64,000 nt of DNA. Source: Natrinema saccharevitans (GTDB taxonomy: Archaea > Halobacteriota > Halobacteria > Halobacteriales > Natrialbaceae). The stretch covers positions 2,852,001-2,916,000 of the forward strand of contig NZ_LWLN01000001.1 of the NCBI RefSeq assembly GCF_001953745.1, read 5' to 3'. This document shows, piece after piece, positions 18,742-26,889 of the stretch (positions are counted from its first letter, which is position 1; every line of letters starts with the position of its first letter). Below the pieces are notes generated by a model, which searched no databases, was not told where the DNA came from, and was given only the letters and a program-made list of their open reading frames with translations. A program made the translations under genes and the position numbers.

Positions 18742-19479
18742 CTACGACTCCGATTCGGACGCCGGCGCGTCGCCGGTCCCGGTCGCGTTCGGCAGGTTCG
18801 GGTCGCGGTAGGGGTTACGGCCGTAGGCCGGCAGCTCGTCCTCGAGTTGTTCCTTGAGGACGCGACGAAGCCGGTTCAGGCTCGTCGTATCGAGCCCGTA
18901 CGCCGACGCGAGCCGCTCGAACGGTTCCTCGTCGGTGATGTCGTGGGCCCGGTACTGGGCGAACAGTTCTTCCATGCGGTCGGCCGACAGCGCCTGGGCG
19001 TCGATGTCGTCGAGCCCGAAGTACTGCTTCCGGTCAGCGTCGACGACGTGGCGGATCACCACCAGCGCGACCTTCTCGATGGCGCGCTGGCTGCCGAACT
19101 CGGTGAGGTCGATCTCGTCCATGACGCCCAGCGCCAGATCGCGCTGCCACGGCGTCACCTCGAGGGCGTTACACAGCGCCTGCGTGGTCCGCAGTCGATC
19201 GAGGTGGTGGGCGCGCTCGCTGTAGCCCGGCGTGGCCGCGTGCTGTTCGTCGTGGAGACGACGCACGCTCTCGGAGAGGTCGGCGTCGGGCGACTCCGCC
19301 CGCCCGATGACCGTCGCGCTCGGCGTGACGACGCCCCACTGGCGGACCGTCGAGTCGCGCTGGACGTCCGCCCGCGAGAGCGAGCCGGAGCCGGGTCGGG
19401 TCTCGAGGCGGCGCTCGTCGTCCGTCTCGACCGGGGCTCGCTCGGACGCTGGACCGGAGTCGGCACCGTCGTCTTGCAT
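18742..19479 (-). CDS. RNA polymerase subunit epsilon-like protein
   Basis: A 245-residue protein that I recognise as the haloarchaeal family annotated as DNA-directed RNA polymerase subunit epsilon. Signature runs are VRQWGVVTPSATVIGRA (about 45-61), LRTTQALCNALEVTPWQRD (about 95-113), and GRNPYRDPNLP near the C-terminus. The middle part looks like a cyclin/TFB-like helical repeat. Ends are disordered. The role in transcription rests on family annotation and not on any catalytic motif seen here. Confidence 0.75.
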   Translation of the reverse strand: MQDDGADSGPASERAPVETDDERRLETRPGSGSLSRADVQRDSTVRQWGVVTPSATVIGRAESPDADLSESVRRLHDEQHAATPGYSERAHHLDRLRTTQALCNALEVTPWQRDLALGVMDEIDLTEFGSQRAIEKVALVVIRHVVDADRKQYFGLDDIDAQALSADRMEELFAQYRAHDITDEEPFERLASAYGLDTTSLNRLRRVLKEQLEDELPAYGRNPYRDPNLPNATGTGDAPASESES

Positions 19480-19665
19480 CGTCTGTCGCTCGGAGAGGGA
19501 GCGTGAAAAAGGCTCGCTCCGTGGAATCGATCGGCTGAACGGACTGACAGGTCCGCTAACAGGTGTCCGTCAACAGGTGAACGGGCGGGAGGGTCGAACG
19601 AACGCGTTCACTGCCGTTTCGATGAGCAACGCCGTCGCTCGAGTGTCCCGTCGATCCGCGAAAAG

Positions 19666-19709
19666 CCCTTCGTAGCTTCACCTCGTAACCAGAGACACGT
19701 AAAGAACGA
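19666..19709 (+). repeat. WSQG-type 45-bp repeat, copy 1
   Basis: Most diverged of five copies: GTAGCTTCACCTCGTAACCA, then GAGACACGTAAAGAACGA. Its minus-strand frame would read F-x-C-L-W-L-R-G. Confidence 0.75.
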
Positions 19710-19860
19710 GCCGTTCGGGTCGGTCAGTAGCGATCACGGTCGATCCTCACCTCGAAGGTGCGACGCGGCCCGGGGCCGTCGCCGACCGGCAGTGTCGGTC
19801 CGCGGAGGTGAGTTCGGACGCGTCGCTGCTCGGTGAAACCCACTCGAGAAGGATTCGTTC

Positions 19861-19906
19861 TCCCGTCGTATCTTCACCTTGTGACCAGAGGCAGCTAAAG
19901 AACGAC
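19861..19906 (+). repeat. WSQG-type 45-bp repeat, copy 2
   Basis: Core TTCACCTTGTGACCAGAG, then AGCTAAAGAACGACG. It ends 11 nt before the stop codon of the nucleotidyltransferase gene. Confidence 0.8.
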
Positions 19907-19917
19907 GCAGGTGCGAG

Positions 19918-20862
19918 CTACCGGACCGCCGCGATCAACTCGTCGACGAACCCGTCGAGGCGGTCGGGGTCGGGACCGGCCCGCGCGTGAACGTCCGGAT
20001 CGATCTCCCGCGGCGGGTGGGCAAACGCCCGACCGATGGCGTCGCCGATCCGCTCGTCGCCCTCGCCGGTCCGCTTTCGCTCGAGGAGGTCTCGAGCCCG
20101 TTCGATCCGATCGGCGTTGAAGACGGCGGGCGCTTGCTCGGTGAGGAACGACTCGAACTCGAGCGCGGGCAGGTCGTGGTCGCCGCGGTCCCCGGTTGCT
20201 TTCAGGTACCGCGCGGCCATCGCCGCCCGGGCGATCACGAGGTTGCGCTTCACCGTAGGCCTCGTCCGGGTTTCTCGAAAACGGTCGTCGTCGGCCGCGA
20301 CCGTCGTCGTCCCGTCGTCGGTCTCGACGACGTACTCGTCGTCGCACACCTCCAGAATCGGGAAGAGTTCGTCGTCGCTCCGGACCAGGTGGTGTGAGAG
20401 ATACTTCCGGTAGTTGTTCGTCGCGATACCCCGCCACGTGTGATAGAGATCCATCGGGTTGTAGGCCCGTTCGACGTACGCTCCGAGATCCGTGGGGTCG
20501 AACGCGGTTCGATAGCGGATCGGACTCCGGAGCAGATCGATCGCCCCGTCGTTGGAGTCGGCCAACAGCCGCGCGAACGTCCGCACGTCCCAGCCCTGAT
20601 ACTCGAACTCGCCGTCCGTCTCGACGATCGTCTCCGGCGGTCCCTCGAGGTGGGCGTACCGACGCAGGTCCGTCGGTACGTAGACGAACCTGACGTCGTA
20701 GTCGCTGTCGGGACCGGCCGCACCCCACGCGTGGCTGCCGTGGGCGACCGCCAGCGCGACCCAGACGTCACGGTCGCGCTCGATCGCCGTCAAGTGGTCG
20801 TCGACGGTCGCACGGATGGCTGCCGAGACGCTGGTCAGATAGTAGCCGCTGAAACGATTCAC
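19918..20862 (-). CDS. RlaP-type nucleotidyltransferase
   Basis: A DNA polymerase beta-fold nucleotidyltransferase of the RlaP (RNA repair pathway) kind. AHGSHAWGAAGPDSDYDVR (40-58) gives the GS signature with metal ligands D54 and D56, and the following helical region resembles the family to the end. The partner expected in bacterial RNA repair, an RNA ligase, is absent nearby. The first usable start in frame is a GTG at 20862 located inside the palindromic element, so the first ten residues come from repeat DNA and the real start may differ. The gene is bracketed by copies 2 and 3 of the 45-bp repeat, suggesting an accessory insertion. Confidence 0.75.
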   Translation of the reverse strand: MNRFSGYYLTSVSAAIRATVDDHLTAIERDRDVWVALAVAHGSHAWGAAGPDSDYDVRFVYVPTDLRRYAHLEGPPETIVETDGEFEYQGWDVRTFARLLADSNDGAIDLLRSPIRYRTAFDPTDLGAYVERAYNPMDLYHTWRGIATNNYRKYLSHHLVRSDDELFPILEVCDDEYVVETDDGTTTVAADDDRFRETRTRPTVKRNLVIARAAMAARYLKATGDRGDHDLPALEFESFLTEQAPAVFNADRIERARDLLERKRTGEGDERIGDAIGRAFAHPPREIDPDVHARAGPDPDRLDGFVDELIAAVR

Positions 20863-20920
20863 ACACTGATCGCAGCGCCATCGTGCGATCAGGTGTGCAA
20901 TGACTTTCAGCGGCTACTAT
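20839..20920 (-). repeat. CTATAGTAGC palindrome, copy A
   Basis: Two arms of 36-37 nt (20839-20874 and 20884-20920) around a 9-nt centre form an imperfect hairpin. Stem base variable block CGCTG pairs with CAGCG. Relative to copies B and C it lies in inverted orientation. It overlaps the 5' end of the RlaP-type gene. Confidence 0.85.
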
Positions 20921-20974
20921 AGTTGTCGCTCGACGCCGTCGAGAACGACGCCGAAGAAGACCGGGTGACGAATG

Positions 20975-21016
20975 CCCTTCGTAGCTTCACCTTGTGACCA
21001 GAAACACGTAAAGATC
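20975..21016 (+). repeat. WSQG-type 45-bp repeat, copy 3
   Basis: GTAGCTTCACCTTGTGACCA, then GAAACACGTAAAGATCG; closest to copies 1 and 2. Confidence 0.8.
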
Positions 21017-21090
21017 GAAACCCGAGCATCGCGATCGTCCGGAGGGCGTCGCGACTGCCGAACGGAACTCGCGGAGAACGGCTGCCGTCT

Positions 21091-21139
21091 TCCCGTCATA
21101 GCTCTACCTTGTGACCAGAGACGCTTAAACGAACGACGG
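21091..21139 (+). repeat. WSQG-type 45-bp repeat, copy 4
   Basis: CATAGCTCTACCTTGTGACC, then AGAGACGCTTAAACGAACGACGG in two parts; nearly identical to copy 5. Confidence 0.8.
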
Positions 21140-21206
21140 CTTTGAGGAGAGACTGCGGAGACCGGCCCCTCGTTCCGGCGGGAGGGCATCGGCCAGTCTG
21201 GGAGAG

Positions 21207-21215
21207 TTATAAAAC
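21207..21215 (+). promoter_or_regulatory. TATA box of small membrane protein gene
   Basis: GTTATAAAA 29-37 nt before the ATG at 21244; the half palindrome lies between box and start. Confidence 0.55.
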
Positions 21216-21223
21216 CGACCGTG

Positions 21224-21246
21224 CTATAGTAGCTATTGAAACGATG
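21224..21246 (+). repeat. CTATAGTAGC palindrome, half copy D
   Basis: CTATAGTAGCTATTGAAACG matches one arm (type 1) of the palindrome family; no second arm is seen. It covers the likely transcription start and the ATG of the small gene. Confidence 0.65.
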
Positions 21247-21447
21247 TCTGCGCTCCGGGCCGTACTGTTCGAGTGGGACCTGAACCGGGTGACAAGGATC
21301 GCCGTCTCCGCGTTGGCCGTCTTTCTCGCGCAACGCGTCACGGACGACTTCCTCACCGGCCTCGGTGCGACGATAGTCTTTCTCGTCGTCCTCTCGATCC
21401 CGTGGGAAGTGACAGAGCGTTTCCCAGGTCGGTCGGACGGGTCGTGA
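21244..21447 (+). CDS. Small two-helix membrane protein
   Basis: A 67-residue protein, MSALRAVLF then two hydrophobic segments (about 18-31 and 40-53) and a basic/acidic tail. I do not recognise a family. A TATA box and an ATG at leaderless distance support expression, and codon choice is GC-rich at third positions. It lies between copies 4 and 5 of the 45-bp repeat and starts in the half palindrome. Confidence 0.55.
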   Translation: MSALRAVLFEWDLNRVTRIAVSALAVFLAQRVTDDFLTGLGATIVFLVVLSIPWEVTERFPGRSDGS

Positions 21448-21500
21448 TTACCGCGGCCGGCGTCGTGACTATCGAATCAAAAACCCGGAGAACGACGACC

Positions 21501-21550
21501 TCCCGTCATAGCTCTACCTTGTGACCAGAACCACTTAAAGAAACGACGGC
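21501..21550 (+). repeat. WSQG-type 45-bp repeat, copy 5
   Basis: CATAGCTCTACCTTGTGACC, then AGAACCACTTAAAGAAACGACGG in two parts; 80 nt upstream of mptA. Confidence 0.8.
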
Positions 21551-21629: not shown

Positions 21630-22556
21630 ATGAGTCATCAGTTACCGGACGTGCAAGCCACGTCACCGGACGTCACCGTCGGCCTGAGTCAGGTCGGCGT
21701 CACGGGCGTCGACAAGCTCGTCAAGATCGCCCGCGAGGGGAAGCGACCGATCGTCCTCACGGCCGAGTTCGAGGTCTTCGTAGATCTCCCCGGCTGGCGT
21801 AAGGGGGCCGACATGAGCCGCAACATGGAGGTCATCGACGAGATCTTGGAGGACGCGACTCGCGAGGAGGCCTACGGCGTCGAGGAGGTCTGTGGCGAGG
21901 CCGCCGAACGGTTGCTCGAGAAACACGACTACACCTCGAAGGCGGAGGTCTCGATGGAAGCGGAGTTCATGCGCCGGGAGCAGACCCCCGCGAGCGACCG
22001 CGAGACTCAGCACACGGTCGACATCGTCGCCTCGGCGACGGCGACCGGCGAGGGGACCCGCGAGGAGATCGGCGCGACGGTCACCGGGATGACCGTCTGC
22101 CCCTGCTCGCAGGGGATGTCCGCCGCCCGCGCGAAAGAGACCCTCGAGGATTTGGGCGTCGAGGAGGGGACGATCACGGAGTTCTTAGAGGAGGTGCCAC
22201 AGCCGGGCCACTCCCAGCGAGGGCACGCGACGCTGACCGTCGAAGCGGGCGGCGATCCCGAGGTCGATCTGAACGACATCATCGACATCGCTCGTGACTC
22301 GATGAGCGCGCGGATCTACAACCTCGCGAAACGGCCCGACGAGGACCACATGACCTACGCGGCCCACGCCGACGCGAAGTTCGTCGAGGACTGCGTGCGC
22401 GCGCTGGCGGAGGGCGTCGTCGACGAGTTCGACCACCTGCCCGACGACGCGGTGATCACGATGAGCCAGTCCAACGACGAGTCGATCCACCAGCACAACG
22501 CCCACGCCGAGCGGGTCGTCAAGCTGGGGACGCTGCGCGACGAGATCGAGAGTTAG
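21630..22556 (+). CDS. mptA: GTP cyclohydrolase MptA
   Basis: A 308-residue archaeal-type GTP cyclohydrolase (FolE2/MptA, COG1469) that converts GTP to the 7,8-dihydro-D-neopterin 2',3'-cyclic phosphate for pterin cofactors. [10 protein letters not shown] is the family start; an ATG 9 nt upstream in frame is less likely. The CPCSQ motif at about residue 155 holds the conserved Cys; the enzyme is metal-dependent. [13 protein letters not shown] near 230 is conserved too. Its stop overlaps the convergent trmB-like gene by 4 nt. Confidence 0.95.
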
Positions 22557-26111: not shown

Positions 26112-26855
26112 GGCACTGTCTAGTTGAGCCAGTTTGAGAAGTGAGCAGGTCGTACTGTTGAGTTGGTTGATGCTCGCAGACCTGCTCAGCGAGAGTTATG
26201 AGACGGATTTAGAAGAATCTTGGGAGAACGAGCGGACGGCGACGCCCGTCAGGGCGTTCGCCGTCCGCCTCCATCAGACCGGTTGTTCGCTTCGAGAGAC
26301 AACAACGATTCTCGCTGAATTAGGCGTTCAACGCTCTCACGGGGCGGTTTGGAACTGGGTTCATCGGCTAGCTGACAGCGGACGCGACCCGCCTGAGGCG
26401 CAGCCGAAGCGGGTCGCCGTTGACGAAACCGCTGTCAAGATTAACGGCGAGTGGTCTTGGTTATACGCTGCAATAGACACCGAGACAAAGTTGATTCTCG
26501 ATGTTGCGTTATTTGGGCGGCATGGCACCGATCCGGCGGCTGCGTTTCTCCATCGACTCACCGAGAAACACGATCTCTCGGATGCTGAGTTTCTCGTGGA
26601 TCAATTCAGCTATCGGACTGCCCTTGCTCGATTAGGATTGAGCGGTCAGGTCAACTATACCGACCGAAACCTCATCGAAAAGTGGTTTCACACCCTCAAA
26701 ATGCGTATCGACCGCTTCCATAACTCGTGGGTGGGCAGTCGGTCGAGCGTCCGCGAGTGTCTTGAACAGTTCATGCATTACTACAATCATCAGAGACCGC
26801 ATCAAGCTCTCGATGGAAAGACGCCGATTGAGAAGGTTCAGAACTATACAGTGCC
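26112..26855 (+). mobile_element. IS6-family insertion sequence
   Basis: Terminal inverted repeats GGCACTGTCTAGTTG (26112-26126) and its near complement ending at 26855 (GGCACTGTATAGTTC read inward) enclose the transposase gene. No 8-bp target duplication is visible (GATTAGCC left, AGTGGACC right), so an adjacent deletion or recombination has occurred. Confidence 0.75.
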
Positions 26856-26889
26856 AGTGGACCTATTGAGTCGTTTCAACGCCAAGTGA
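26170..26889 (+). CDS. IS6 family transposase
   Basis: A 239-residue DDE transposase of the haloarchaeal IS6 type. An N-terminal helix-turn-helix region (LHQTGCSLRETTTILAELG, 35-53) is followed by the catalytic residues D85 (VAVDETAVK), D144 (FLVDQFS) and E170 (NLIEKWF), all intact. YYNHQRPHQALDGKTPIE near the end is typical. I chose ATG 26170 (MLADLLSESY); a TTG at 26134 is possible. The reading frame runs 34 bases past the right terminal repeat, so the last residues come from flanking DNA. Confidence 0.9.
   Translation: MLADLLSESYETDLEESWENERTATPVRAFAVRLHQTGCSLRETTTILAELGVQRSHGAVWNWVHRLADSGRDPPEAQPKRVAVDETAVKINGEWSWLYAAIDTETKLILDVALFGRHGTDPAAAFLHRLTEKHDLSDAEFLVDQFSYRTALARLGLSGQVNYTDRNLIEKWFHTLKMRIDRFHNSWVGSRSSVRECLEQFMHYYNHQRPHQALDGKTPIEKVQNYTVPVDLLSRFNAK

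Follow-up and report, generated by a model that had tools for sequence, protein, structure and literature searches.

What is a repeat that lies five times, always in the same orientation, within a short chromosomal interval, and what maintains it? The stretch analysed here (the window; 64,000 nucleotides) lies on the chromosome of Natrinema saccharevitans (G000, 3.98 Mb). An initial annotation of it had left the choice between short peptides, gene ends and conservation at the level of DNA.

The repeated element and its distribution

Five copies of a 44-bp core were located in the window, all on the + strand, with starts at 19665, 19861, 20974, 21091 and 21501; the shared orientation described for them earlier was borne out, and the spacings were about right. 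A search with the 22-nt consensus and up to three mismatches returned exactly these five matches in 64 kb, whereas shuffled sequences predicted 0.01, so the copies are real and not due to chance. The copies and the genes around them are as follows.

18742..19479, − strand: RpoEps gene, 245 aa, modelled as a TFIIB-like single-cyclin-fold protein; proposed trans-acting partner (annotated homologues, AlphaFold2 model, co-occurrence)
19665..19708, + strand: site copy 1, subtype GCCCTTCGTAGCTTC, upstream of the RpoEps gene (PWM score 56.1)
19861..19904, + strand: site copy 2, subtype TCCCGTCGTATCTTC, between the RpoEps 5′ end and the nucleotidyltransferase 3′ end (PWM score 60.0)
19918..20862, − strand: RlaP-type nucleotidyltransferase gene inside the array, start codon uncertain (PF10127, E 2.7e-31; synteny)
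20974..21017, + strand: site copy 3, subtype GCCCTTCGTAGCTTC (PWM score 64.4)
21091..21134, + strand: site copy 4, subtype TCCCGTCATAGCTCT (PWM score 61.8)
21501..21544, + strand: site copy 5, subtype TCCCGTCATAGCTCT (PWM score 73.7)
21630..22556, + strand: MptA GTP cyclohydrolase gene, right-hand syntenic neighbour with no proposed role in the system (TIGR00294, E 5.6e-123)

The consensus quoted in the initial annotation is not exact everywhere (copy 1 has CTCGTAACCAGA, copy 2 CAGCTAAA and copy 4 AAACGAAC), and its two subtypes were replaced by three, formed by copies 1 and 3, copy 2, and copies 4 and 5. The palindrome TCACCTTGTGA, which it had placed in two copies, is confined to copies 2 and 3.

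The consensus CCCkTCrTAkCTyyACCTTGTGACCAGArgyACTTAAAg was derived from 241 non-redundant copies; less strongly conserved sequence on both flanks brings the total to about 60 bp; conservation among relatives thus reaches further than the 45 bp first given. Approximately 20 positions are nearly invariant, and conservation ends abruptly on both flanks. The subtypes are set by correlated positions (core position −11 with −20 to −15). An invariant TTTAAGT, which reads TTAAA on the + strand, is TATA-like. The element is non-palindromic, in that core positions −2 and −1 vary and their would-be partners do not. Sites are intergenic, with 1 of 428 in the fetched loci falling inside a predicted gene; context genes were called with a home-made codon-usage finder checked on the window only.

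Copies were counted genome-wide and in 391 Halobacteriales genomes, each at least 90% complete (f, g, G and L denote our codes for families, genera, genomes and loci), using a sequence-only profile on which the site counts depend. Seven copies were present in the G000 genome, the two beyond the window lying 107 and 215 kb to its right on the same strand; the opposite strand held no copies, and a reversed control pattern gave no matches. All 28 other congeners searched had several copies, mostly on one strand, and the element was found in 171/391 genomes, belonging to f1, f4, f5, f6, f7, f12, f14 and f17. Copies elsewhere in the genome, and hundreds in relatives, thus speak against the local duplication that the initial annotation had considered. 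Outside Natrialbaceae the orientation of sites is mixed.

Named records that share both element and synteny are mostly from Natrialbaceae, in which three syntenic places were recognized: between the 245-aa gene, the RlaP-type nucleotidyltransferase and MptA; between ThiE-GNAT and an AEC transporter; and between convergent genes for MgtE and a TrkA-C protein. The median spacing of array copies is about 130 bp, without significant helical phasing (p about 0.15), and the largest array comprises nine copies in 2.2 kb (L105). Copy number varies by gain or loss of whole array units. The element was also present in 16 plasmid records, often as one copy per plasmid (four Halococcus dombrowskii plasmids carry single sites), and was not found in the phage and viral collections searched. 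On Halomontanus rarus plasmid unnamed3 (L195, 1350-1881) a ParA gene and its small partner are followed, 76 bp further on, by a site; no other plasmid site was seen immediately next to a partition operon.

RpoEps as the proposed partner of the element

The gene adjoining the first copy on its left encodes a protein of 245 aa, to which four plasmid genes annotated as DNA-directed RNA polymerase subunit epsilon show 54-61% identity (tblastn); at two plasmid loci a homologous, epsilon-annotated gene has sites on both sides. The window gene is taken to be RpoEps, its identity with Halobacterium OE_1279R resting on the annotated homologues. Epsilon, as described in PMC8305020, is found in a subset of haloarchaea, co-purifies with RNA polymerase in Halobacterium and enables the purified enzyme to transcribe native templates; its biological relevance is called 'enigmatic' there. 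Homologues of the partner gene bear the same name as Halobacterium rpoeps, OE_1279R (PMC8305020, section 3.8), and both are restricted to a haloarchaeal subset; the part of that paper concerned with OE_1279R names no DNA target, whereas here an element of about 60 bp is tied to RpoEps. The core string was not found in a haloarchaeal context in the literature searched.

A match to RpoEps was obtained in 198/391 genomes. These 198 include all 171 site-bearing genomes, and no site was found in any of the 193 RpoEps-less genomes (Fisher p 1.6e-82, a value that ignores relatedness). Gene and site were also jointly present or absent within each of f1, f4, f5, f7, f12 and f14. There remained 27 genomes with an RpoEps match and no profile match, of which 11 hold remote homologues only; among the other 16, divergent sites were found beside the gene in 10 and a conserved half-site elsewhere in four more, and no site was found in two strong-RpoEps genomes (G221, G224). 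The half-site alone matched in 162/391 genomes, none of which was seen to lack an RpoEps match, and in G183, which has a remote homologue (35% identity), it lies about 100 bp from the gene. In nearly every lineage a site is located about 70-350 bp upstream of RpoEps, and chromosomal sites flank the gene also in f4 g58, f6, f12 and f17. Five f4 g66 genomes (L235, L240, L242, L244, L246) have RpoEps without an adjoining array and 0-2 half-sites elsewhere; they should be useful for the study of site loss or divergence.

Variation in the site follows variation in the protein. RpoEps of the Natrialbaceae genera g7, g9 and g34 groups with f7 and f4 proteins, not with those of other Natrialbaceae, and a single Natrialbaceae RpoEps clade was rejected (AU p 2.4e-8). 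In the sites of the same three genera the left half TCRTAKCT is replaced by TCACTAYGA, and the right half CCnTTGTnnCnAGAnnnACTTAAAG is kept. This subtype adjoins the gene in g7, g9 and g34 and also occurs at unlinked places (G034 C8 and C9, gene on C7; G305 C1 and C5, gene on C4; G264 C31, gene on C11); simple hitch-hiking of adjacent DNA does not account for this. Mapped onto the RpoEps tree, subtype required five changes, where the minimum is four and the shuffled mean 20.3; element subtype therefore tracks the RpoEps tree and not the family of the organism. We read this as evidence that RpoEps, or something travelling with it, recognizes the site, and the pairing of element with RpoEps is well supported by these genome comparisons.

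The structure of RpoEps was modelled with AlphaFold2 using 34 homologues. The model is helical (mean pLDDT 67.6), confident in residues 80-210 only, and the N-terminus is predicted to be disordered. Residues 88-214 were aligned by VIA-align with a Brf2 cyclin repeat (Z 10.4, 94 residues, 2.4 Å); human TFIIB scored 9.8 (range 94-100 residues), cyclins 7.3-8.8 and unrelated folds at most 4.9. Foldseek alone gave no significant match to the model, and no Pfam or PDB profile, those of TFIIB included, matched the RpoEps sequence; a TFIIB-like fold is for these reasons likely but not proven. RpoEps would share the cyclin-repeat fold with TFIIB, TFB and Brf2, and differs from TFIIB in having one modelled cyclin fold and no CxxC pair of an N-terminal zinc ribbon in its alignment.

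An element kept only with RpoEps, whose variants follow those of RpoEps, is probably the long-missing DNA target of the epsilon protein, and probably a promoter-like site for loading RNA polymerase. We favour, with some confidence, the combined reading that it is the cognate element of RpoEps, which helps place RNA polymerase there. RpoEps, modelled with a TFIIB-type cyclin fold, would bind the element directly, and once bound may help to set RNA polymerase in position, with the invariant TTTAAGT acting as a TATA-like box and the remaining sequence being specific to epsilon. On the TTTAAGT strand the conserved block spans the TATA-like box to about the expected start-site position, a layout consistent with a promoter at the first copy that fires toward RpoEps; sites adjoining the gene could in this way provide autoregulation. 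At most sites, transcription would be short or non-coding, or the output would be regulatory, because neighbouring genes apparently have promoters of their own; the output may also be architectural.

Two known kinds of promoter invite comparison. The TATA-like TTTAAGT recalls the BRE and TATA box, but the element greatly exceeds BRE plus TATA in length and specificity, and the genes beside it retain promoters of their own. For the 58-bp Class I intergenic repeats of halovirus HF2, promoter function was demonstrated (PMC8707807); they too are long, multi-copy, intergenic and haloarchaeal, but they are viral, lie near viral genes and have mapped start sites, whereas the present element has no phage or viral match. 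A broader proposal, which we advance tentatively and hold to be somewhat less likely than its opposite, is that these elements form a second, factor-specific class of haloarchaeal initiation or loading sites, about 60 bp long, recognized by TFIIB-like RpoEps, also plasmid-borne, exchanged between lineages with their own specificity and apart from ordinary gene promoters. A site that occurs only with epsilon, and whose subtypes switch along with it, opens the enigmatic role of this subunit to direct experiment: the sites and the gene are known, and specificity swaps come ready-made. Archaea could prove to have another type of TFIIB-based initiation, or a new system of site and factor.

Alternative readings of the sites

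Before homologous contexts were collapsed, the 5′ end of the left gene faced the site in 64/91 contexts, which suggested a reverse-strand promoter of that gene. Counted by distinct gene family, orientation was without bias on the left (29 vs 23, p 0.49) and on the right (30 vs 39), and the flanking genes show an AT peak of their own at −36 to −25. The sites are therefore not ordinary promoters of these genes, and a reverse-strand promoter of the left gene and an archaeal core promoter of a flanking gene were both rejected. As a weak trend, the right end of the element lies nearer to 3′ ends (median 59 vs 126 bp, p 0.016), often less than 70 bp from a stop codon (23/39 gene families); its left end is less close.

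Independence of site position from gene direction would also be expected if RpoEps bound architectural, partition or centromere-like sites that organize or segregate replicons and do not start transcription. The sites resemble those of parS/ParB and SegB-type systems in being few per replicon, clustered in arrays near the gene of the presumed binding protein and present on plasmids, including the single sites in Halococcus dombrowskii; one-strand orientation within most congeners and the plasmid site just after a ParA operon point the same way. They differ in that the element is not palindromic, has no conserved ParA partner and is not generally near an origin gene. A generally origin-proximal centromere, suggested by Natrialbaceae maps, was rejected, the RpoEps locus being near orc1 in f1 and f4 g58 and far from it in f17, f4 g82 and f7. 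Mixed orientation outside Natrialbaceae, and a modelled fold that is that of an initiation factor, also count against this reading, which we consider unlikely.

A similarly low probability is given to the sites being operators of an RpoEps regulon, at which RpoEps or its complex with RNA polymerase would adjust neighbouring genes, chiefly that for RpoEps itself and the RlaP-type nucleotidyltransferase gene, from positions outside their core promoters. The site upstream of RpoEps in nearly every lineage, the uncollapsed excess of left-gene 5′ ends and the separate core promoters of flanking genes agree with this, but the excess is gone by gene family, several sites lie between convergent genes and no common theme was found among the genes flanked.

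A small-RNA or short-peptide gene family, to which the tandem copies and an open reverse frame had pointed, is very improbable. The frame proposed in the initial annotation is open in all five window copies as described, but its W-S-Q-G reads W-L-R-G in copy 1 and its 'A' is D in copy 2. Among the 241 non-redundant copies, stops were found in 43 and the variable positions were mostly codon positions 1 and 2, not the third; a protein-coding short ORF and gene ends were both rejected on these grounds and on the abrupt halt of conservation on both sides. The alternative of conservation at DNA level proved correct. A hairpin or structured RNA family was likewise rejected: the Rfam search gave no match, and there were no convincing covarying base pairs, the top paired-column signals being the subtype correlations. 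Conservation between copies was not found outside the element, so no defined RNA product is seen.

CRISPR, excluded from the outset by irregular spacing, and tandem duplication were rejected on that spacing and the wide conservation. Mobile-element remnants, attachment sites or a local duplication would accommodate the varying copy number and the gain or loss of whole units, but are hardly credible given that some positions are nearly invariant across families, that no transposon ends are conserved at the flanks, that viral contigs and phages contained no copy, and that the element depends strictly on RpoEps; the co-occurrence already largely refutes them.

Neighbouring features in the window

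The RlaP-type nucleotidyltransferase (RNA repair pathway) lies in the array of most Natrialbaceae and is absent from it in L016, L054, L086 and L165. A probable MITE of about 83 bp (20839-20922), whose 16-bp terminal inverted repeats match perfectly (ATAGTAGCCGCTGAAA...TTTCAGCGGCTACTAT), is inserted between this gene and site copy 3 of the window, and the called GTG start of the gene falls within it. Between copies 4 and 5 (21244-21447) a 67-aa putative membrane protein is encoded, which has no Pfam or NCBIfam match and which, among the loci scanned, is shared by only one relative (L077). An ORF at 26134-26889, at the start of a lower-GC stretch (26-32 kb), is likely to encode a DDE transposase (IS6-like by eye).
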